Source of the DNA: Candidatus Latescibacterota bacterium
GTDB lineage: Bacteria; Latescibacterota; UBA2968; GCA-2709665
Assembly: GCA_012271065.1 (NCBI GenBank)
Contig: JAAXHE010000026.1
Span: 1 to 9,405 of the forward strand
Direction: 5' to 3'
Length of the DNA: 9,405 nucleotides
Shown here: piece by piece, positions 1 through 9,405 of the stretch
How the letters are laid out: every line of letters starts with the position of its first letter
Numbering within the stretch: position 1 is the first letter of the stretch
Notes under the pieces: model-generated
The model's input: only the letters and a program-made list of their open reading frames with translations
Databases searched by the model: none
What the model was told of the DNA's origin: nothing
Position numbers and translations under genes: made by a program

Positions 1-680
1 TAGGGATACATGAACAGCTCCACCGCCGTCGCGCCTACGGACCCCATCACGGCCATGGCGACGAACGCCCCGTCCGCAGGCAATGCGAAGCGAAGTCCCG
101 AAAGCACCTCGGCGCCTCCCACGGCGTATGGCGTGGCCTGCATTGCGATCACGGATCCGATGACGACCAGGCTGAAGCCCGCGACCAGAATCGTGATCAT
201 CCGCTCCAGATCCGCGTACAGGCCCCGGTACAGCAGAATCGAGATTGCCGCGAAAACCAGAATAGCCCAGAAATTGTACGGGACACCGGGAAGGAGGGTC
301 ACCATCAGTCCCGCCACGGACCCCAGTATGCCGATCACGGCAATCATCACGGAGAAATAACCCAGCACACACAGCCAGGCCGCCCAGGAGGTATTCGACA
401 GGCGCACGCCGGGCACGCGGTCCAGCACCTGAATCGTCGTGCTGTTGTGCAGGACACACTGGCGCCCGAGTTCAAGCTGGATGAAGAATTTGACCAGACA
501 GGCCAGGATCACCCCCCAGAGGAAGACGAAGCCCACCTCAGCCCCCATGCGGGTGGTCACCAGCAACTCGCCGGACCCGACCACCGAACCCGACACGACC
601 ACGCCCGGGCCGATATTCCGCAGCAAGCCTCCGACGCCCCGCGGCGCCTCTCGAACCGGCCGTCTGGCTGCGTTCTCCAT
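1..680 (-). CDS. Nramp-superfamily membrane transporter, divergent, 3' end outside window
   Basis: Translation from the ATG at 680 stays open for 226 codons to the window edge, so the C-terminal part is missing (Nramp proteins usually exceed 400 residues). A Shine-Dalgarno CGGAGT lies at 687-692. The protein starts with a short basic tail and then shows alternating hydrophobic segments, about residues 24-42, 48-70, 100-130, 137-151, 160-180 and 205-224. The TM1 region GPGVVVSGSVVGSGELL followed by MGAEVGFVFLW matches the Nramp TM1-TM2 pattern without gaps. The DPGN metal motif of MntH falls on G35-S36-G37-E38. In TM6, after a conserved GAT (216-218), the canonical MPH falls on V220-E221-L222. 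The fold is therefore Nramp-like, but the known Mn/Fe ligands are absent and the substrate is unknown. It is separated from the upstream genes by a 362-bp gap, so it may be a separate transcription unit. Family assignment is fairly sure; function is open. Confidence 0.8.
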   Translation of the reverse strand, partial: MENAARRPVREAPRGVGGLLRNIGPGVVVSGSVVGSGELLVTTRMGAEVGFVFLWGVILACLVKFFIQLELGRQCVLHNSTTIQVLDRVPGVRLSNTSWAAWLCVLGYFSVMIAVIGILGSVAGLMVTLLPGVPYNFWAILVFAAISILLYRGLYADLERMITILVAGFSLVVIGSVIAMQATPYAVGGAEVLSGLRFALPADGAFVAMAVMGSVGATAVELFMYP

Positions 681-1042: not shown

Positions 1043-2377
1043 CTAATAGACCGGCAGATACCGTTCGCGTTCCCACTGGTCGACGTGCAGATGATACTCC
1101 GCCCATTCTTCGCGTTTCACCTGCACGTAATAGTCCGCATATTCCGTCCCGAGCGCCTCCCGGAGCACGTCATCGGACGCCAGGTGATCGGCCGCCTCCG
1201 CCAGGGTACCCGGGAGCAGATCGATGCCCCGCGCTCTCAATTCGCTTTCGGGCACCTCATAGAGATTGCCCTCGTTGCGTTCTCCCGGCTCCATACGGTT
1301 TTCGATGCCGTCGAGCCCGGCTGCCAGCATTGCCGCGGTCGTCAGGTATGGATTTGCGGCGCCGTCGATCGCCCGGTTCTCGATACGGCCCGCGTCCGGG
1401 ATTCGTATCATCTGCGTCCGGTTCGATCCGCCGTAGGTGATGCAGATCGGCGCCCAGGACGCGCCCGAACGAGGAGCACCCCTCGTGAGGCGTTTGTAGC
1501 TGTTCACCAGCGGCGCGGACACTGCGGAAATCGCCTTCGCGTGGTTGAGGATGCCCGCCATGAACCAGTAAGCCTCCTTCGACAGACCGTTTTCATCCCC
1601 GTCGTCGAGGAACAGGTTGGTCCTGTTCTCTGGATCCCACAGGCTCATGTGATAGTGCGCGCCGCTTCCGGTGAGATGAGAAAACGGCTTCGGCATGAAC
1701 GTCGCGTGGTATCCGAGCCGCTCTGCGTTCACCTTCACCATCCATCTGAAGAACGTCTGCCGGTCGGCGGTCGTCAGCGCGTCGGAATAGGTCCAATTGA
1801 TCTCGAACTGGCAATTGGCGTCTTCGTGGTCGTTTGCATAGGGTTCCCATCCCAGTTCCTGCATATACCCGATGAGCGTGGTCATCACGTCCAGGTTGCG
1901 ATGCAGGGTGACGAGATCGTAACAGGGCTTCTCCAGCGTATCCATCGGATCGGCCAGCGCATAGTTCCCCTGATCATCCTTTTTAAGGAGGATGAATTCC
2001 GCTTCCACGCCCAGATTCAGGCGATATCCCTTCGCTTCCGCCTTTGCGAGCTGCCGCTGCAGGATCGTCCGCGGACAATATCCGAACGGCTCCCCCTCGA
2101 CTTGGATGTTGCCGGCAACCCACGCCGTATTCTTGCGCCACGGCAATACGGTCATCGAGTTGAAGTCCGGTATGTTCATCATATCGGAATCGTGCGGGCC
2201 CTGCCCCATATTGCCCGCCGCGAAACCTGCGAACCCCGCGCCCTCCGAGGCCATGTCGTCGAGGTGGGTCACGGGCACCACCTTGGCCTTGGGCATCCCG
2301 CTCATCTCCACAAACGAACACAGAAAGAAGTCGATTCCATTCGCGGCTACGAATTCTTTAACCTGGTCCAGCGTCAT
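1043..2377 (-). CDS. glnT/gmaS: Type III glutamine synthetase (GlnT) / gamma-glutamylmethylamide synthetase (GmaS)-like
   Basis: This 444-residue protein covers a whole GS-fold enzyme of the type III GlnT/GmaS branch, which ligates ATP-activated glutamate to ammonia or methylamine in the cytoplasm. Visible motifs include EGAGFAGFA (45-53), the metal motif GVEAEF with E125 and E127, NDHEDANCQFE with E185 and E192, GSGAHYHMSLW with H241 and H243, VNSYKR ending at R296, and the ANPYL block at 340-344. A Tyr in the NLYEVP context (Y373) matches the adenylylation loop of GS type I. The start at 2377 is preferred over an in-frame TTG at 2395 because GGGGAG (2386-2391) sits 8 bp upstream and the family begins near MTLxxVK. 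The gene follows a small membrane-protein gene by 26 bp. Family motifs do not separate GlnT from GmaS. The tdm-fhs-amt context favours a role in methylamine assimilation, but this is inference. The mgs/mgd genes that usually accompany gmaS are not in the window. Confidence 0.9.
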   Translation of the reverse strand: MTLDQVKEFVAANGIDFFLCSFVEMSGMPKAKVVPVTHLDDMASEGAGFAGFAAGNMGQGPHDSDMMNIPDFNSMTVLPWRKNTAWVAGNIQVEGEPFGYCPRTILQRQLAKAEAKGYRLNLGVEAEFILLKKDDQGNYALADPMDTLEKPCYDLVTLHRNLDVMTTLIGYMQELGWEPYANDHEDANCQFEINWTYSDALTTADRQTFFRWMVKVNAERLGYHATFMPKPFSHLTGSGAHYHMSLWDPENRTNLFLDDGDENGLSKEAYWFMAGILNHAKAISAVSAPLVNSYKRLTRGAPRSGASWAPICITYGGSNRTQMIRIPDAGRIENRAIDGAANPYLTTAAMLAAGLDGIENRMEPGERNEGNLYEVPESELRARGIDLLPGTLAEAADHLASDDVLREALGTEYADYYVQVKREEWAEYHLHVDQWERERYLPVY

Positions 2378-2403: not shown

Positions 2404-2634
2404 TTAGGAATTCTTGTTCTCAGTATCCGTCGGCGATGCGGGCGATTCTGCCTCGGCCAACTGATCCAGCTCGGCAGCATAAGTTGCATTCTCGTGTTTG
2501 ATCTGCCAGATCGTGTACGCAATCCATAAAACAACGCAAACCACAAAAAGAGGAACCTCGGACCCGACAAAGGGATACATCGGACCCACGTCGGCCGGAT
2601 TCCCCACCCACGTGTCGACCAAACCCGTTCTCAT
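2404..2634 (-). CDS. Small single-pass membrane protein, unknown function
   Basis: This is a 76-residue open frame with a very strong Shine-Dalgarno (AAAGGAGGAGG at 2638-2648, AGGAGG core at 2641-2646, 6 bp from the ATG). I do not recognise the family. Residues 1-26 are short and slightly acidic with a MYPFVGSE stretch. Residues 27-45 (VPLFVVCVVLWIAYTIWQI) form one hydrophobic helix. Residues 46-76 are hydrophilic and mostly acidic, starting with K46-H47-E48, and may extend as a helix before a Ser/Thr/Asn-rich tail. The gene lies between fhs and the glutamine synthetase gene, 26 bp from the latter, so it is probably cotranscribed and may be coupled to it. Strong ribosome binding, a clean membrane segment and position support a real gene. 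Possible roles are an accessory subunit of the Amt transporter or a membrane anchor; neither is shown by sequence. Confidence 0.72.
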   Translation of the reverse strand: MRTGLVDTWVGNPADVGPMYPFVGSEVPLFVVCVVLWIAYTIWQIKHENATYAAELDQLAEAESPASPTDTENKNS

Positions 2635-2780: not shown

Positions 2781-4466
2781 TCAGAATAGACCGACCGTGT
2801 GTCCGGCTTCATCATAATCGATCGCCTCTGCCGACGGCCTGCGCGGAAGCCCCGGCATTGTCATGACGTCTCCGGTATACACGACCACAAAACCTGCCCC
2901 GGCAGACACCCTCACGTCGCGGATGGGCACGTCGAAACCCCTCGGTCTGCCCTTCAATCCCGGATCCGTCGAGAGCGAATACTGGGTCTTGGCCATACAG
3001 ACCGGAAGCTTTCCGTGCCCCGCTTCCTCGAGCTTTGCGAACCGGGCTCTCAACCGTTTGTCCCCCATAATATCGTCGGCGCCGTAGACTTCCCGGGCGA
3101 CGATCCTGGCCTTGTCCCACAACCGCAGATTATCGGGATAGAGAAGCTTGAAATCGCAGGACGCCGTTTCCGCGGCCTCGACAACCCTTCGCGCAAGCGC
3201 CTCCGCGCCGGCCCACCCCTTCGCCCAGTGTTCCGATGGAACGATCGGCAGATCCATATCGGCGCAGCTGTCCTGAATCAGAGCGATCTCACCGGACGTG
3301 TCGGAAAGAAACCGGTTCACGGCCACGACAGCTGTGAGGCCGAAACGCCGGATGTTTTCGATATGCTTCCTCAGATTCACGAGACCTTTTTCCAGCGCGG
3401 CCGGGTTGGCGTCCGACAGCCGCCTGGGTGACATACCGCCATGGTATTTCAGTCCCCGGACCGTCGCCACCAGCACCACCACGTCCGGGCGGATGCCGGC
3501 CTGACGGCACTTGATATTCAGAAATTTCTCCGCGCCCAGATCCGCACCGAATCCGGCTTCGGTTACGGTATATTCGGACAGTCGCATGGCCAGCTTGGTC
3601 GCGATCACCGAATTGCAACCGTGCGCGATATTGGCGAACGGACCCCCGTGAACGATCGCCGGGTTGTTCTCAAGGGTCTGCACCAGATTCGGCTTCAGCG
3701 CGTCTCTCAGCAGCACGGCCATTGCACCGTGCACATTGAGGTCCGCCGCCGTGACCGGTTCATTGGACCGCGTATACGCCACAATGATCCGGCCCAGCCG
3801 CTCCCGAAGCTCGTCGAGCGACTCCGAAAGGCAAAAAATAGCCATCACTTCCGATGCGACCGTGATTTCAAATCCCGATTCACGAGGATAGGAGTTCCCC
3901 GTACCTCCCAGACCGACGACGATTTCCCGAAGCGCGCGGTCGTTCATGTCCATCACGCGCTTCCACAGGACGCGCCGGGGATCGATATCCAGCCTGTTCC
4001 GGTGATGGACGTGGTTGTCGATCGCTGCCGAGAGGAGGTTGTGGGCGACGCCAACTGCGTGGATATCGCCCGTAAAATGCAGGTTGATGTCCTCCATCGG
4101 CGCTACCTGGGACATCCCGCCGCCGGCAGCGCCCCCCTTCATCCCGAAACAGGGGCCCAATGAAGGCTCTCTGAGACAGATTGCCGTGCGCTTTCCCAGC
4201 CGGTTAAGCGCGTCGCCCAGGCCCACGGTCGTGGTTGTCTTGCCCTCGCCGGAAGGCGTGGGATTGATCGCCGAGACCAATACCAGCTTGCCGGCGGCAT
4301 TTCCGGCAAGGCTGTCGTAAAAATCCATCGAGACCTTGGCCTTGTACCTGCCGTAGACCTCCAGTTGGTCTTCCGGCACGCCCAATTCCTGCGCGACCTG
4401 GCCGATATGGTGCAGACGGGCCCGCCTCGCAATCTCGATGTCCGGCAATACGTCGTGCTCGCGCAT
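2781..4466 (-). CDS. fhs: Formate-tetrahydrofolate ligase (10-formyl-THF synthetase)
   Basis: This 561-residue protein matches the normal length and order of bacterial FTHFS, a cytoplasmic enzyme that interconverts formate + THF + ATP and 10-formyl-THF + ADP + Pi. The P-loop [12 protein letters not shown] is at 69-80. The [18 protein letters not shown] block is at 100-117, followed by the INLHFTGD and [10 protein letters not shown] segments. Further C-terminal are [20 protein letters not shown] and KYHGGM. No catalytic block is missing. The start at 4466 has an AAAGGA Shine-Dalgarno (4470-4475), rather close at 3 bp, and gives the usual N-terminus ([13 protein letters not shown]). The gene lies 83 bp from amt and 146 bp from the small membrane-protein gene. 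Next to a THF-linked demethylase it most likely works in C1 oxidation, making formate and ATP, but assimilation of formate is equally allowed by the enzyme. FolD or FchA partners are not in this window. Confidence 0.97.
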
Positions 4467-4549: not shown

Positions 4550-5944
4550 CTAGCTGCCTGCCCGCGCTTCGTCGATTTCGGCCTGAGCGAGTTCGTCTGC
4601 ATCAGCATTTTCGTTCTGAATGGCCACATGATCCAGACCCGCAATTTCAATCTGCGCCGGAATGCGCAGAATGCCGAGTTTCTTGAGGATCGCCCCCAGG
4701 ACGTAACAGGGCAGAAAGCCCAGCACAAAGAACATGATGACGGCGCCGAGCGTCTGTCCCCACGGCGTAATCGGAGCGTACGCGGGATTGGCGCCCGGAT
4801 ATCCCCAGAGTACGAACCCCGCGACAATCACCCCGATAACCCCGGCATAGCCATGTACCGCCACGGCGCCCACCGCATCGTCGATCCTGAACCGTTTCTC
4901 GACCCAGTTGTGCAACTTGTACATGCAGAACGTGCCGAATGCGCCGATGAGCAGCGCCTGCATCGGATGGTACAGATCATTGCCGGCCGATGCCGTGATG
5001 ATGCCGGCCAGTCCACCGGAGAACGTCCAGTAAGGGTCGCCCTTGGAAACGAAATACCCCATGATCAACCCGCCGGCGAGCGACATCAGAAAGTTGAACG
5101 TGATGGCGCTGAGCGTCGTGGGCGTCAGGTAAATCGTGGTGGCCGAAAAGAACGCCCGGTCGCTGGCGGGGTCCACGTCCATGATGGGCACGTTGCAGGC
5201 CGCGTAAAAGCCCCAGAACCCCGTATAGATCAGGAACAGACCGATAACGACCAGCCAGGTGTTTTGAGGCGGGAAGTTTCTGGGAGAACCGTCGGACCTG
5301 AATCTGCCGATTCGCGGCCCCAGGTGGTAGAGGATCGCCAGCGCGGACCCGCCGCTTATCGCGTGGATCACACCGGAGGCGTATGCGTCGTGGTATCCCA
5401 GTACCTGAACCATCCAGCCGTCGGCGGACCAGCCCCATGCCGCGTCGATCACCCAGGTAACCGATCCCACCAGCACCGCGAAAATCCAGAACGCGCCGGA
5501 TCGGATGCGTTCGATGACCGCACCCGAAAGAATCGATCCCGCCGTCCATGAGAACAGCAGAAACGCCGCCCAGAACACGCCGTTCAGCCGCGCCCATAGC
5601 GCCGTATCGTCTCCGGTCAGCCCGCCGCCGTGCGGCTTGCCACCCATATGCGTACCCATCAGCTCATTCCAGGGCGTAGCCCACGCGGCTTCGATCAGCC
5701 CGCCCGTGATCCCGGGTCCGTTCTGCACGGCGAAATAGATCCACCACCCGAAGAAATAGAACGTAATGGTAACCAGAGGAATCAGCATCGCGTTCTTCAT
5801 AAGGGTGTGCATCATATTCTTCCTCCTGGACACGCCGACTTCGTACAGACAGAAGCCGACGTGGATGAGGAACATGAGCACGATACATATCCAGTAATAG
5901 AATTCCGTAAACACGACGGTCAATGCACTGAGTTCGTTGTCCAT
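4550..5944 (-). CDS. amt: Ammonium/methylammonium transporter, Amt family (divergent)
   Basis: This 464-residue protein has about 11 hydrophobic segments of the Amt/Mep/Rh fold and acts in the inner membrane. The two pore histidines are present: H194 in DAYASGVIH, with D186 eight residues before it as for E. coli AmtB D160, and H364 in DDAVGAVAVHG. F131 in FSWTAGSILSGAVIER matches the AmtB F107 gate, and F246 in GFWGFYAAC matches F215. Two residues near the recruitment site differ: AmtB N216 aligns with Y247 and S219 with C250. The LGPRIGRF signature is at 208-215. The C-terminal tail (about 430-464) is acidic and Asn/Ala-rich. The start has CGGAGGG at 5950-5956. The gene sits between a flavin reductase gene (53-bp gap) and fhs (83-bp gap), with no glnK PII gene beside it, unlike many amtB loci. 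In this context it may import ammonium or methylammonium. Confidence 0.94.
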   Translation of the reverse strand: MDNELSALTVVFTEFYYWICIVLMFLIHVGFCLYEVGVSRRKNMMHTLMKNAMLIPLVTITFYFFGWWIYFAVQNGPGITGGLIEAAWATPWNELMGTHMGGKPHGGGLTGDDTALWARLNGVFWAAFLLFSWTAGSILSGAVIERIRSGAFWIFAVLVGSVTWVIDAAWGWSADGWMVQVLGYHDAYASGVIHAISGGSALAILYHLGPRIGRFRSDGSPRNFPPQNTWLVVIGLFLIYTGFWGFYAACNVPIMDVDPASDRAFFSATTIYLTPTTLSAITFNFLMSLAGGLIMGYFVSKGDPYWTFSGGLAGIITASAGNDLYHPMQALLIGAFGTFCMYKLHNWVEKRFRIDDAVGAVAVHGYAGVIGVIVAGFVLWGYPGANPAYAPITPWGQTLGAVIMFFVLGFLPCYVLGAILKKLGILRIPAQIEIAGLDHVAIQNENADADELAQAEIDEARAGS

Positions 5945-5997: not shown

Positions 5998-6489
5998 TCA
6001 GATCTGAGAAGCGGTCCCATCCGAAATCTTGCGATACTTTCCCTGGTAAAACAGAAGCGGACGACCTGAACCCGCATCGCCCGCAACAATCTTGCCAACG
6101 AAAATATCATGGTCGCCGGCCCGCAACACGTCGGCCAGCAGACATTCCACGTGGCCCAGTGCGTCCGTGAGGACGGGGGCGCCGGTCCGGAACGTCGTCG
6201 TGGCCACGTTCGAGAAGTCCTTGGGACCCGGTCTGGCAAACTGAGTTGAAACCGCTTCCTGATCCTCGCTGAGGATATTCAATGCGAAATACCGGCTTTC
6301 CGTCAAATGGGCGTGCATCTGCGCCCCCTTGTCAACGGATACCATGACCAGAGGGGGATCAAGCGAAAGCGAGGTCACGGCATTGGCTGTCATTCCCCTG
6401 TATTCGCCGCCTGCAACCGTGGTGACAACGGTGACGCCGGTTGCAAAACAACCCATAATCCGACGTTGCTCCATCGGGTCGAAGGCCAT
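5998..6489 (-). CDS. Flavin reductase domain protein (HpaC-like, two-component monooxygenase type)
   Basis: This 163-residue single-domain protein belongs to the flavin reductase-like FMN-binding family, which uses NAD(P)H to supply reduced flavin to a separate oxygenase. Visible features are RIMGCFATGVTVVTT (10-24), GMTANAVTSLSLDPPLVMVS (32-51, the FMN-binding core), FALNILSEDQ (68-77), the GDHDIFVGKI motif (125-134) and PLLFYQGKY (144-152). Length is normal for a stand-alone reductase. The start at 6489 has GAGAGGG (6497-6503), 7 bp upstream. It lies between tdm (103-bp gap) and amt (53-bp gap). Tdm itself needs no reduced flavin, so the partner is probably elsewhere; the ACAD-fold protein encoded just upstream of tdm is the nearest candidate. 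Its actual partner and its preference for NADH or NADPH cannot be read from the sequence. Confidence 0.87.
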   Translation of the reverse strand: MAFDPMEQRRIMGCFATGVTVVTTVAGGEYRGMTANAVTSLSLDPPLVMVSVDKGAQMHAHLTESRYFALNILSEDQEAVSTQFARPGPKDFSNVATTTFRTGAPVLTDALGHVECLLADVLRAGDHDIFVGKIVAGDAGSGRPLLFYQGKYRKISDGTASQI

Positions 6490-6592
6490 TACGATACCCT
6501 CTCAATGAGAGCGCCGTCCAACGCGAAGCTTCAGGGCACTATCGTGGGTACGACGTCGGCCGGAGAAGCATTGCGGATCCTTGAAGCCGTAA

Positions 6593-8926
6593 TCAGGAAC
6601 GTAGCCGCGTTTTGTCCGGATCGTAAAACGGAAACCGCACCACCTGCGCGGTAATACGTTTCTGGTGGCCGTCCAGCCTTCCCACCTCGACTTCGGCGCC
6701 GACCGCGGCGTACCGGGTAGCGATACGGCAAAGCGCGATATTCCTGCCCAGAATCGGTGAGCGGGTGCCGCTCGTGATCGCGCCAACGCGGCCGCGCCCG
6801 TCGTAAACGTCGTCGCCGGTGGCGACCGGTTCATTCCCTGATACCTCCAGCCCGACCAGCACGCGTTGTGGATGCGAACGCCTTCGGATCAGCGCTTCTT
6901 TGCCGATAAAGTCGTCTTTCTTGCGCCTGAGCGGAACCGTGAAGCCGATCCCCGCCTCAAATGGGTCCGTCTGGTCGTCAAACTCGCATCCCGCAAAAGC
7001 CAGACCGGCCTCGATCCGCAGCATGTCCAGGGCTTCCAGCCCCAACGGTTTCAGGCCATCCCGCTGTCCCGCTTTCCAGATGGCATCCCACACCGCGGGC
7101 GCATCGTTGGGATGGCACCATACCTCGTAACCCAGTTCGCCCGTATAGCCCGTCCTGGATACGACAATCGCCGGACCGTTTCCATTGCCGATTCGGCCCA
7201 CCGTGAATCGGAACCAGCCCAGTTCGGCCAGGGACGGGCGGGACGGAGGCGTCCAGATGACGTTGCGGAGGATATCCCGGCTTCCGGGTCCCTGAACGGC
7301 AAGATTATGGAGTTGATCCGTCGAGTTTCTGACCCATACCCGCATCCCGAGCCGACTCGCCTGCTCGCGCAGCCACGTGCCCCCGTAATCGTCGCCGCAG
7401 ATCCACCGGAAATTCTCGGCGCCCAACCGGAACAGCGTGCCGTCGTCCAGCATGCCGCCGGTTTCGTAACACATCGCGGAATAAGTCACCTGCCCCGGAG
7501 TAAGCCGGCGGACGTCCCGCGTCAGCGTGTACTGCAGCAACGCCTCCGCGTCCGGCCCGAGGACCTCGAATTTACGCAGCGCGGACAGGTCCATCACCGC
7601 CGCGGTCTCGCGGCAGGCGAAGTATTCCTCGACGGCGCCCTTGCCTGTAAAACACGCGGGAAGCCAGAACCCGCGGTATTCCTCGTAATGGCGAGTCAGG
7701 GAGGACGTGCGTTGGTGAAAGGCCGTCTCCCTCGTCAACCTGGGCGCGGCGTCTGCCGTCATCCGGTGAGCAATCCCCCTGGAAAAACGGTACCGTTCAG
7801 GGTAGACGCGGACCTGAATCTCCGTTGGCTCCCAGCCGTTGGCCGGATCGATATCGTCCGGGCACGCGGACGACAGACAGACCAGGTCCGTTAAGGCCTT
7901 CAGTAAGACATGGTCGCCCGGACGAGACCATGGCTCGTCCATGAACAGGACGTTATTCCCGTCGATTCTCGTATTGTAGAAGAAATTCACGGCTGGCCAG
8001 CCGCGCCGGGGCTGAATCGTATACGGGTCCAATGCCGCGTTGAAGTTGTCCGTACAGTTGACGTGACCCGGATAACCCATATCCTCGTAATATTTGGCGG
8101 TGCACGCAAGCGCAAACGTATCGTGCCGCCCTACCGTATCCCGAACGACCTCGACCAGCGGATGCATATCCTGGTCGTAAAACTTCGAAAAAAGGCCCGG
8201 ACCGGGATAGGCCGCGCCCATGAGGGTCCGCGTGGTGGTCGCATCCAGGCCACGCTCAACGCCATGCTGCAGCTGCCGGGCGTCGAACGCCAGAAAATCG
8301 GAACACTGGCGCCCGGCGACGTCGATCACCTGGATGAACTCTCCGGCCTTTACCTCGTAGGCGATGGCCGACGCCCTTTCCACCTCCAGATCCAGGCGCA
8401 TGTCACCCAGAGGCGCGGGCAGCGGGGGGCTTTCCGGCGTTTCCACGCGCGAGCGCCTGACCACGACTTCCAAGTCCGTCGGGGGATCCTGGGCATCCAC
8501 CCGCATCGGCCCGCCGGGAGCCGCAATCACGCAAACGGCGTCCCTCCGGGCGTTGAAACACGTTTCGGCGCCGGCTTCCGTCTCTCCCCCGAAGACCTGT
8601 ACCGCCCGCGCGCCCGCGAGGTCGATGCCCTTTCGCCGCAGGGCCGCGCGGGCCGCCAGCGCGCTCTCGTCCCCGCGCCGGAGCGCCTCCGTGAAACCCT
8701 CCATCGCACCGTCAGCACGGAGACCCAGCCGGGAGGGATCGGCGCCGCCGTCCGGACCGAATACGCCCAGTTCGCAGCGCTGGCGCCCTTCCACGTCGAC
8801 GACCGCCAGCCGGTCGCCCCGTGCCAGCCCCAGGGCGATCGCCCCGCCGCCCGGCACCCGATAGCGCTCCCTGCCCGGTGTCCATCTAAGCAGTCCCGTC
8901 CCGGTCATTTGGACGTCTTCAGGCAT
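6593..8926 (-). CDS. tdm: Trimethylamine N-oxide demethylase (DUF1989-GcvT fusion)
   Basis: This 777-residue cytoplasmic protein has the Tdm architecture: an N-terminal region (1-175), a DUF1989 metal domain (about 185-380) and a GcvT/aminomethyltransferase domain (about 400-777). Tdm converts TMAO to dimethylamine and formaldehyde, the latter captured on THF by the GcvT half. D210 in CSDFLAF, C275, H288 and C291 in YPGHVNCTDN, and C355 in LSSACPDD fit the DUF1989 metal site. The Cys spacing 16 and 64 equals that I recall for Methylocella silvestris Tdm (C263, C279, C343). GcvT marks include MDLSALRKFEVLGPDAE, GGMLDDG, RTGYTGELGYE and the final IGKEAL and SGTRSPILG blocks. The N-terminal region repeats the DUF1989 start (37-56 resembles 195-214) without its Cys ligands. 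The start ATG at 8926 overlaps the preceding stop as TGATG; a GTG at 8929 would add one residue. A DMSP demethylase (DmdA) is unlikely because it lacks DUF1989. Confidence 0.87.
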   Translation of the reverse strand: MPEDVQMTGTGLLRWTPGRERYRVPGGGAIALGLARGDRLAVVDVEGRQRCELGVFGPDGGADPSRLGLRADGAMEGFTEALRRGDESALAARAALRRKGIDLAGARAVQVFGGETEAGAETCFNARRDAVCVIAAPGGPMRVDAQDPPTDLEVVVRRSRVETPESPPLPAPLGDMRLDLEVERASAIAYEVKAGEFIQVIDVAGRQCSDFLAFDARQLQHGVERGLDATTTRTLMGAAYPGPGLFSKFYDQDMHPLVEVVRDTVGRHDTFALACTAKYYEDMGYPGHVNCTDNFNAALDPYTIQPRRGWPAVNFFYNTRIDGNNVLFMDEPWSRPGDHVLLKALTDLVCLSSACPDDIDPANGWEPTEIQVRVYPERYRFSRGIAHRMTADAAPRLTRETAFHQRTSSLTRHYEEYRGFWLPACFTGKGAVEEYFACRETAAVMDLSALRKFEVLGPDAEALLQYTLTRDVRRLTPGQVTYSAMCYETGGMLDDGTLFRLGAENFRWICGDDYGGTWLREQASRLGMRVWVRNSTDQLHNLAVQGPGSRDILRNVIWTPPSRPSLAELGWFRFTVGRIGNGNGPAIVVSRTGYTGELGYEVWCHPNDAPAVWDAIWKAGQRDGLKPLGLEALDMLRIEAGLAFAGCEFDDQTDPFEAGIGFTVPLRRKKDDFIGKEALIRRRSHPQRVLVGLEVSGNEPVATGDDVYDGRGRVGAITSGTRSPILGRNIALCRIATRYAAVGAEVEVGRLDGHQKRITAQVVRFPFYDPDKTRLRS

Positions 8927-9405
8927 CACCCCTCGTCGGTTTCAGCCAGAAGCTGACGCGCGAGTTCCTTCTTGCTATCGCCATCCATTTTCTTGAGTTC
9001 GTTCCTCAATATCCGTTCGTTGACCGACTGGTTCCAATAGTCCAGTGAATCGAACCCCAGCAGCACGCTCTTGCCTACAAACTGGCGCAGGACCTCATTC
9101 GTGGGGCCCATCACCCATCCAGCCTTTCCGTCACGCAGATACCGTTCGATACCCAGGTCGGGCTTGTACCCCGTCCCCCCGCAGGCGTGCAGCATCTTGT
9201 CGGAGACGTTCGCCACGTTCTTCGCCGCGGTGAACTTCACCTGCCACATCCAGTGCAGCACGTCCGCCCTCGGCATGCAGGAGAGGTCCTTATGGATCGA
9301 CCAGTCGCACCGATTCGTGACGTCGTCCATCGCCCGGGCCATCAGGTAGACGAAGGACCGTGAGGTGTTCGTATCGATCACGGCCTCGCCCACGTAATCC
9401 TGGAT
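8926..9405 (-). CDS. Acyl-CoA dehydrogenase-fold flavoprotein, C-terminal part, possible monooxygenase component
   Basis: The reading frame is open from the window edge to a TGA at 8926-8928, giving 159 visible residues; the 5' portion lies outside. An apparent GTG start at 9393 is internal, because the frame continues in codons IQDY before it. The visible part is the C-terminal helical domain of the acyl-CoA dehydrogenase superfamily: an amphipathic helix run, then CGGTGYKPDLGIERYLRD (visible residues 75-92), as in canonical GGxGY...ERxxRDA. The next segment, WVMGPTNEVLR, aligns without gaps to the usual IYEGTSEIQR, placing G100 where most family members have the catalytic Glu. A 45-residue tail with DSLDYWNQSV and a basic helix follows. 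Without that base it may be a group D flavin monooxygenase (like isobutylamine N-hydroxylase), or an isovaleryl-CoA-dehydrogenase-like enzyme with the Glu in an upstream helix. The tdm start overlaps its stop, indicating translational coupling. Confidence 0.85.
   Translation of the reverse strand: MQDYVGEAVIDTNTSRSFVYLMARAMDDVTNRCDWSIHKDLSCMPRADVLHWMWQVKFTAAKNVANVSDKMLHACGGTGYKPDLGIERYLRDGKAGWVMGPTNEVLRQFVGKSVLLGFDSLDYWNQSVNERILRNELKKMDGDSKKELARQLLAETDEG

Follow-up and report, generated by a model that had tools for sequence, protein, structure and literature searches.

The locus examined here raises the question of which enzyme supplies trimethylamine N-oxide (TMAO) to a predicted TMAO demethylase (Tdm) whose gene lies between an acyl-CoA dehydrogenase (ACAD)-like gene and a stand-alone flavin reductase gene. 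It belongs to a 9,405-nucleotide stretch of contig JAAXHE010000026.1 (assembly GCA_012271065.1, Candidatus Latescibacterota bacterium), and this whole stretch is referred to as the window. A preliminary description of the DNA had proposed that the trio might constitute a flavin monooxygenase system for a methylated amine, independent of the flavin-containing monooxygenase (FMO) Tmm or of the dimethylamine (DMA) monooxygenase DmmDABC. From sequence comparison we give slightly better than an even chance to a specific form of this idea, in which the ACAD-like protein and the reductase would be a two-component flavin monooxygenase that converts trimethylamine (TMA) to TMAO and a non-orthologous replacement of Tmm. 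This reading builds on four observations, namely the genes themselves, the loss of dehydrogenase residues, the recurrent linkage of the genes, and a distribution complementary to that of Tmm. The three genes are:

8926-9405, minus strand: candidate ACAD-like oxygenase, C-terminal 159 amino acids, cut by the window end (PF00441, 32 bits, cut-off 22.4)
6593-8929, minus strand: tdm, predicted TMAO demethylase (NF053776; domains DUF1989, GCV_T and GCV_T_C; metal-site residues)
5998-6489, minus strand: stand-alone flavin reductase, proposed supplier of FMNH2 or FADH2 (PF01613, 151 bits)

The middle gene encodes a protein of DUF1989-GcvT make-up that scores 1237.6 bits against NF053776, the NCBIfam equivalog model for TMAO demethylase, and by passing the curated cut-off of 1100 it is identified as a predicted TMAO demethylase. 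The protein keeps all six metal-site (Zn/Fe) residues that the available part of PMC12560246 names for Methylocella Tdm (D198, C263, H276, C279, C343 and D346), at a constant offset of 13. Its reading frame spans 777 codons from the ATG at 8926, or 778 from an in-frame GTG one codon further 5′, at 8929. The stop codon of the ACAD-like gene overlaps the ATG by one base (TGATG), as had been noticed at the outset together with the reductase downstream.

The arrangement is found well beyond this organism. Scanning GTDB genomes for tdm turned up 226 relatives, and the 80 most similar to the window tdm were used as loci. The ACAD-like gene adjoins tdm in 17 of these 80 loci, directly upstream on the same strand in 16 and convergently in one (L025), and the two genes overlap slightly or lie up to about 60 bases apart. 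Eleven of the 17 are from Actinomycetota, four from metagenome-assembled genomes (MAGs) titled Gemmatimonadota or Latescibacterota, one from an alphaproteobacterium and one from a further bacterium; given this recurrence in other phyla, the arrangement is not due to chance. An Acidobacteriota MAG (L006) carries both genes as well, each at the end of a different contig. Within the phylum of the nearest genome (64 genomes) tdm was present in five genomes and ACAD in six, all five tdm genomes carried ACAD, and in the sixth ACAD genome the start of a tdm gene lies beside ACAD at a contig end. The reductase, whose nearest solved relative is the reductase component of a phenol hydroxylase (1rz0), follows the same pattern, being present in 16 of the 23 tdm loci of ACAD-positive genomes as compared to one of the 57 others (Fisher p 1e-10, kinship ignored), and that one is 30% identical and 9 kb away. 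At L026, L032 and L057 it stands beside tdm with ACAD not adjoining but elsewhere in the genome (within 8 kb in L032). For the four ACAD-like genes on contigs without a full tdm, a reductase lies alongside in L108 and L110 and none is seen in L109 (12 kb) or L183 (3 kb); at L182 a reductase-like start was recognized by eye at the contig end. We conclude that ACAD, tdm and the reductase form a real and recurrent gene partnership.

A full-length homologue of the ACAD-like protein, 464 amino acids long and 97% identical over the shared part, was read in the nearest genome (L002). When aligned to solved ACADs, the catalytic Glu that we take to be of the medium-chain (MCAD) type (RDAKITQIYEGTNQIQR) falls on Gly405 (RDGKAGWVMGPTNEVLR), and the position that we take to be that of the isovaleryl-CoA dehydrogenase (IVD)-type Glu falls on Phe264. 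Gly405 is invariant in 43 of 43 aligned relatives, as are Met404, Trp402 and His154-Phe155-Trp156, while position 264 is occupied by F or W in 39 of them and by L or I in the remaining four. The glycine reported from the C-terminal fragment is a family trait, and the upstream glutamate for which the preliminary description had called for the full-length sequence is absent. Ordinary ACADs (46 proteins from five genomes) carry Glu at one of the two positions in 40 of 46 cases, as against none of the 16 distinct rows of the family (17 rows including the duplicate L155). Likewise, Arg265 is present in 46 of 46 ordinary ACADs and replaced in the family (by Phe in 14 of 16 rows), and position 154 is Asp in 46 of 46 versus His in 16 of 16. 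The paralogue rows were 55 distinct proteins from 60 loci, those returned for 212 listed domain matches.

These residues bear directly on the possibility that the gene, placed by tdm by accident, encodes a dehydrogenase, either of acyl-CoA or of another electron-transferring type. Since the whole family has other residues at both catalytic Glu positions and in place of the conserved Arg, since the nearest genome has just two genes that match the ACAD C-terminal domain, the ACAD-like gene included, and since the same neighbours recur across phyla, we regard this as very improbable. A narrower candidate, an ordinary β-oxidation ACAD, is rejected on account of the changed residues and the recurrent neighbours. 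It is highly probable, in our judgement, that the ACAD-like protein works together with the reductase as a two-component flavin monooxygenase for some methylated amine.

The preliminary description had likened the protein to the group D flavin monooxygenases. Like the members of this group (HsaA, DszC, SfnB and Acinetobacter Dms1-3), the family has an ACAD fold and a separate reductase and lacks both the dehydrogenase Glu and the ACAD Arg; Phe264 itself recurs in five of the eight group D type proteins that we compared. These eight were chosen by motif, and one passes the HsaA cut-off, one the SfnB cut-off, five score below cut-off and L145 matches no model at 1e-30. However, the invariant GSHFW and RDxKAGWVMGP motifs of the family were not found in the group D proteins, and the C-terminal His of seven of the eight is Met in every row of the family. 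The motif in question is of the type RDxHx(4)H, which we take to be characteristic of group D and which is also visible in the rows compared. In an unrooted tree the family forms a branch of its own (support 100), apart from 44 ACADs (99) and the eight group D type proteins (77), and thus outside the clade of ordinary ACADs; this tree omits L141, L153 and L155 (which duplicates P0001) and contains two long frames trimmed to their last 400-430 residues. The family has therefore lost the dehydrogenase signature but does not carry the usual group D one. While the lost Glu and Arg and the nearby reductase agree with group D membership, we do not accept the protein as a proven member because the His is absent and the tree is unrooted. 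Among NCBIfam models, all 17 matches were ACAD or group D type models and NF058570 (Tmm) was not among them. The nearest ACAD model, Rv1679/FadE16 (NF049984), shares the fold, the length and the spacing of a TNE(V/I)-type C-terminal motif; the family differs from it in lacking Glu at both positions and Arg265, and scores 217 bits against a cut-off of 600. As for a catalytic glutamate in FadE16, no paper naming FadE16 was among the literature matches listed.

Genome-wide searches for Tmm, ACAD, PF11927, trimethylamine dehydrogenase (TMADH)-like and TmoX-like genes covered the 49 genomes from which 50 of the 80 loci come (51 genomes for TmoX). Tmm was called with a SAR11 gene that passes NF058570 (742.5, cut-off 675) and a threshold set in the gap between E 3e-164 and 5e-37. 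ACAD was found in 21 of the 49 genomes and Tmm in 29, such that 17 genomes hold ACAD only, 25 Tmm only, four both and three neither (Fisher p 8e-7, with relatives sharing states). Tmm was not found in the nearest genome (98% complete) nor in any of the 17 ACAD-only genomes, and 12 of these 17 gave no FMO match at all at E 0.001; completeness figures (97-98%) accompany these absences for four genomes, and none are told for genomes reached through loci. The trio thus recurs in genomes without tmm, a point that the preliminary description had put up for testing. In 30 further tdm genomes, mostly SAR11 and searched for ACAD alone, ACAD was present in two. The phylum survey and the 49-genome survey share four genomes, which are near relatives of each other (G002, G003, G004 and G005 are the same assemblies as G001, G071, G070 and G072). 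On a Tdm tree of those 51 of 81 sequences with a tested state, ACAD changes state four times and Tmm five times. One part of this tree is suggestive: an ACAD-only member of the Streptosporangiaceae splits off ahead of two Pseudonocardia that carry ACAD-tdm-tmm and of three relatives that have Tmm only, which looks as though Tmm had been gained and ACAD lost afterwards.

A tdm gene might also be fed by imported TMAO. We searched for the binding protein of a TMAO importer with a SAR11 gene that we take to be TmoX by its position, and whose only PDB match at 1e-20 is 4xz6, titled glycine betaine/proline binding protein. At an identity of at least 42%, a cut of our own choosing, TmoX-like genes were present in 13 of 25 Tmm-only genomes, two of the three with neither oxidase and one of the four with both, and in none of the 17 ACAD-only genomes. 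The tally at E 1e-20 is 20 of 51 genomes, and the four extra matches are 31-34% identical in the ACAD-only genomes G006 and G008 and in G042, and a partial 47% in G045. Scavenging of TMAO without TMA oxidation therefore fits two of the three neither-oxidase genomes and none of the ACAD-only ones. Other TMAO importers may be present in the ACAD-only genomes; given that neither searched source of TMAO, Tmm or TmoX, was found there, the ACAD pair is the obvious candidate.

The rest of the route looks alike whichever oxidase is present. A soxB-like FAD oxidoreductase, a 489-amino-acid glutamine synthetase-like protein, mgsABC and a 138-amino-acid protein are encoded with tdm in the Tmm and ACAD classes alike, so that the enzyme before Tdm is what changes. 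This matters for the alternative that the pair is a two-component monooxygenase for the DMA that Tdm releases and takes the place of DmmDABC. PF11927, which we take to be a mark of Dmm-type enzymes, was found in none of the 21 ACAD-positive genomes, as this alternative would have it, and in two Pseudonocardia tdm has both ACAD and Tmm genes as neighbours. Yet PF11927 is missing as well from 21 of 25 Tmm-only genomes, which have no ACAD either, avoidance of Tmm is not expected of a DMA enzyme, the remaining neighbour genes are common to both classes, and the ACAD-only genomes would be left without a found source of TMAO. We consider a DMA monooxygenase unlikely; judging by the distribution, TMA is favoured over DMA as the substrate (ALTERNATIVES). 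The proposal of a Tmm-independent system is thus supported in part.

A second alternative is that the pair acts as an oxygenase on some other N-methylated compound, such as a precursor of TMA or TMAO, or on several substrates. ACAD-fold two-component DMS (dimethyl sulfide) enzymes are indeed called promiscuous in the available part of PMC13352529, and at L110:7765-12757 a 52% relative of the ACAD-like protein lies with its own flavin reductase beside a gene for an 815-amino-acid FAD/GcvT protein resembling sarcosine and dimethylglycine dehydrogenases, with no tdm. This set may be a sister system that serves a different N-methyl compound. However, that relative has Leu at position 264 rather than F or W, avoidance of Tmm would again not be expected, and ACAD directly adjoins tdm in 17 of the 80 loci. 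We hold this alternative to be about as improbable as the one for DMA.

Several observations weigh against TMA oxidation by the pair as a replacement of Tmm. Tmm also occurs in four of the 21 ACAD-positive genomes, in the same cluster in the two Pseudonocardia (L066 and L077) and elsewhere in two more; a tmm gene in the same cluster, which the preliminary description had named as refuting its proposal, is thus present in two of 21 ACAD-positive genomes, and no tmm was found in the nearest genome or the 17 ACAD-only ones. Weak FMO matches remain in five of these 17 (best E 1e-18). Only two independent pairs lie on well-supported branches of the Tdm tree, four in total, and with so few independent switches a relatedness-corrected test of the avoidance, here a sign test, is without power. 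Close TMADH-like genes, which would provide another TMA route, occur in four of the 17 ACAD-only and none of the 25 Tmm-only genomes (at least 53% identity to the L061 protein, whose own genome is one of the four). The gene at L061:13291-15396 lies downstream of ACAD and tdm and its product scores 894 bits to solved TMADH (PDB 1djn), with relatives at 53-59% in the three other genomes; being present in four of 17, the TMADH route does not explain ACAD in general. The reductase was not found at seven of the 23 ACAD-positive loci, five of them on contigs shorter than 10 kb and two at the tmm-bearing Pseudonocardia loci. To these are added the Met in place of the group D His, the L110 relative, which suggests that the wider family may use other N-methyl compounds, and the profile scores and fold ranks of the ACAD-like protein, which favour ordinary ACADs; the fold search does not decide its function.

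Under the favoured reading, that of a TMA monooxygenase, we infer the flavin used, the oxygen chemistry and the substrate as follows. The flavin reductase would reduce FMN or FAD with NAD(P)H, and the ACAD-like protein would bind the reduced flavin in a pocket that has an aromatic residue instead of the dehydrogenase base (Glu) and its neighbouring Arg. Oxygen would react with the bound flavin to give a C4a-(hydro)peroxyflavin, whose distal oxygen would be attacked by the nitrogen of TMA to form TMAO. Tdm would then cleave TMAO to DMA and formaldehyde, and the pair would stand in for the unrelated FMO-type Tmm. The proposed reaction and its place before Tdm are those of Tmm (NF058570), but Tmm is described in the available part of PMC13352529 as a single-component, NADPH-using class B FMO, whereas here an ACAD fold is combined with a separate reductase. 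The closest precedent comes from the same source, in which ACAD-fold two-component enzymes oxidize DMS to DMSO, the Dms1-3 proteins of Acinetobacter among those that oxidize DMS; reduced flavin by itself also oxidized DMS in that work. DmmDABC is also an oxygenase of this catabolic route, according to the part of PMC5520151 available to us, but is made of different proteins. No paper joining an ACAD-like protein with TMA oxidation or with Tdm was found among the papers listed in a search of titles and abstract openings that left most subscription journals outside.

In the window the trio heads a single minus-strand row of genes, ACAD-like, tdm, flavin reductase, amt, fhs, a short open reading frame (ORF), GmaS-like and Nramp-type, of which the remaining members are:

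4550-5944, minus strand: amt, ammonium-transporter family (PF00909, 194 bits, cut-off 23.2; below the TIGR00836 cut-off)
2781-4466, minus strand: fhs, formate-tetrahydrofolate ligase (NF010030, 865, cut-off 652)
2404-2634, minus strand: 76-amino-acid ORF with a hydrophobic stretch and a good ribosome-binding site, between fhs and the GmaS-like gene (direct reading)
1043-2377, minus strand: GmaS-like gene, type III glutamine synthetase family (TIGR03105, 593, cut-off 469.6)
3-680, minus strand: Nramp-type transporter, N-terminal part, cut by the window start (48.6 bits, NF037982 cut-off 50)

The names GmaS, mgsABC and TmoX should be taken as presumptive. The top PDB matches of the GmaS-like protein are 7cql, a type III glutamate-ammonia ligase, and 9qur, a glutamate-methylamine ligase. 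A full Nramp-type gene is present in the relative L002 (10141-11484; NF037982, 107 bits), and with Tdm being an Fe/Zn enzyme, metal supply is a possible link to the transporter that closes the row. In the close relatives L003-L005 an mgsC-like gene and the gene for the 138-amino-acid protein lie 5′ of ACAD. This small protein follows mgsC-like genes on their 3′ side in the tdm clusters of several phyla, among them those of SAR11 (L003:8144-8557, L038:18967-19296 and 21 more). It has 19 invariant columns in 23 sequences (alignment A2), no Pfam or NCBIfam match and a weak AlphaFold model (pLDDT 72). The soxB-like, 489-amino-acid and mgsABC set is seen at L038:12783-18891, with similar sets in L117, L032, L008 and L046. 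SAR11 is stated to be without DmmDABC in the available text of PMC5520151; its missing DMA step may therefore lie among these genes. In Actinomycetota, alike genes that by eye resemble phytanoyl-dioxygenases lie near ACAD-tdm at L069:12160-13017 and L111:10556-11536. The ACAD match of L069 itself (8582-9935) is in two pieces in different frames, and this copy may therefore carry a frameshift or an assembly error.

Taken more broadly, we consider it an evenly balanced proposition that an undescribed ACAD-fold two-component TMA monooxygenase, working without the dehydrogenase Glu or the group D His, replaces Tmm in lineages of Actinomycetota, Acidobacteriota, Latescibacterota-like bacteria and alphaproteobacteria. 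Published surveys of TMA use are built on tmm as the first-step gene. As far as their available parts go, PMC5520151 and PMC13390433 assign that step to Tmm, and PMC9999580 uses FMO transcripts to predict that a sponge microbiome oxidizes TMA. If our reading is true, surveys with tmm as the marker would miss such TMA users, and the capacity for TMA oxidation would be undercounted in sponge-associated bacteria, Actinomycetota and Acidobacteriota. Because Tmm accepts DMS as well (PMC13352529, in the part available), oxidation of DMS would perhaps be undercounted too. Finally, the ACAD fold would extend to the oxidation of a tertiary amine, with an active site unlike those described.

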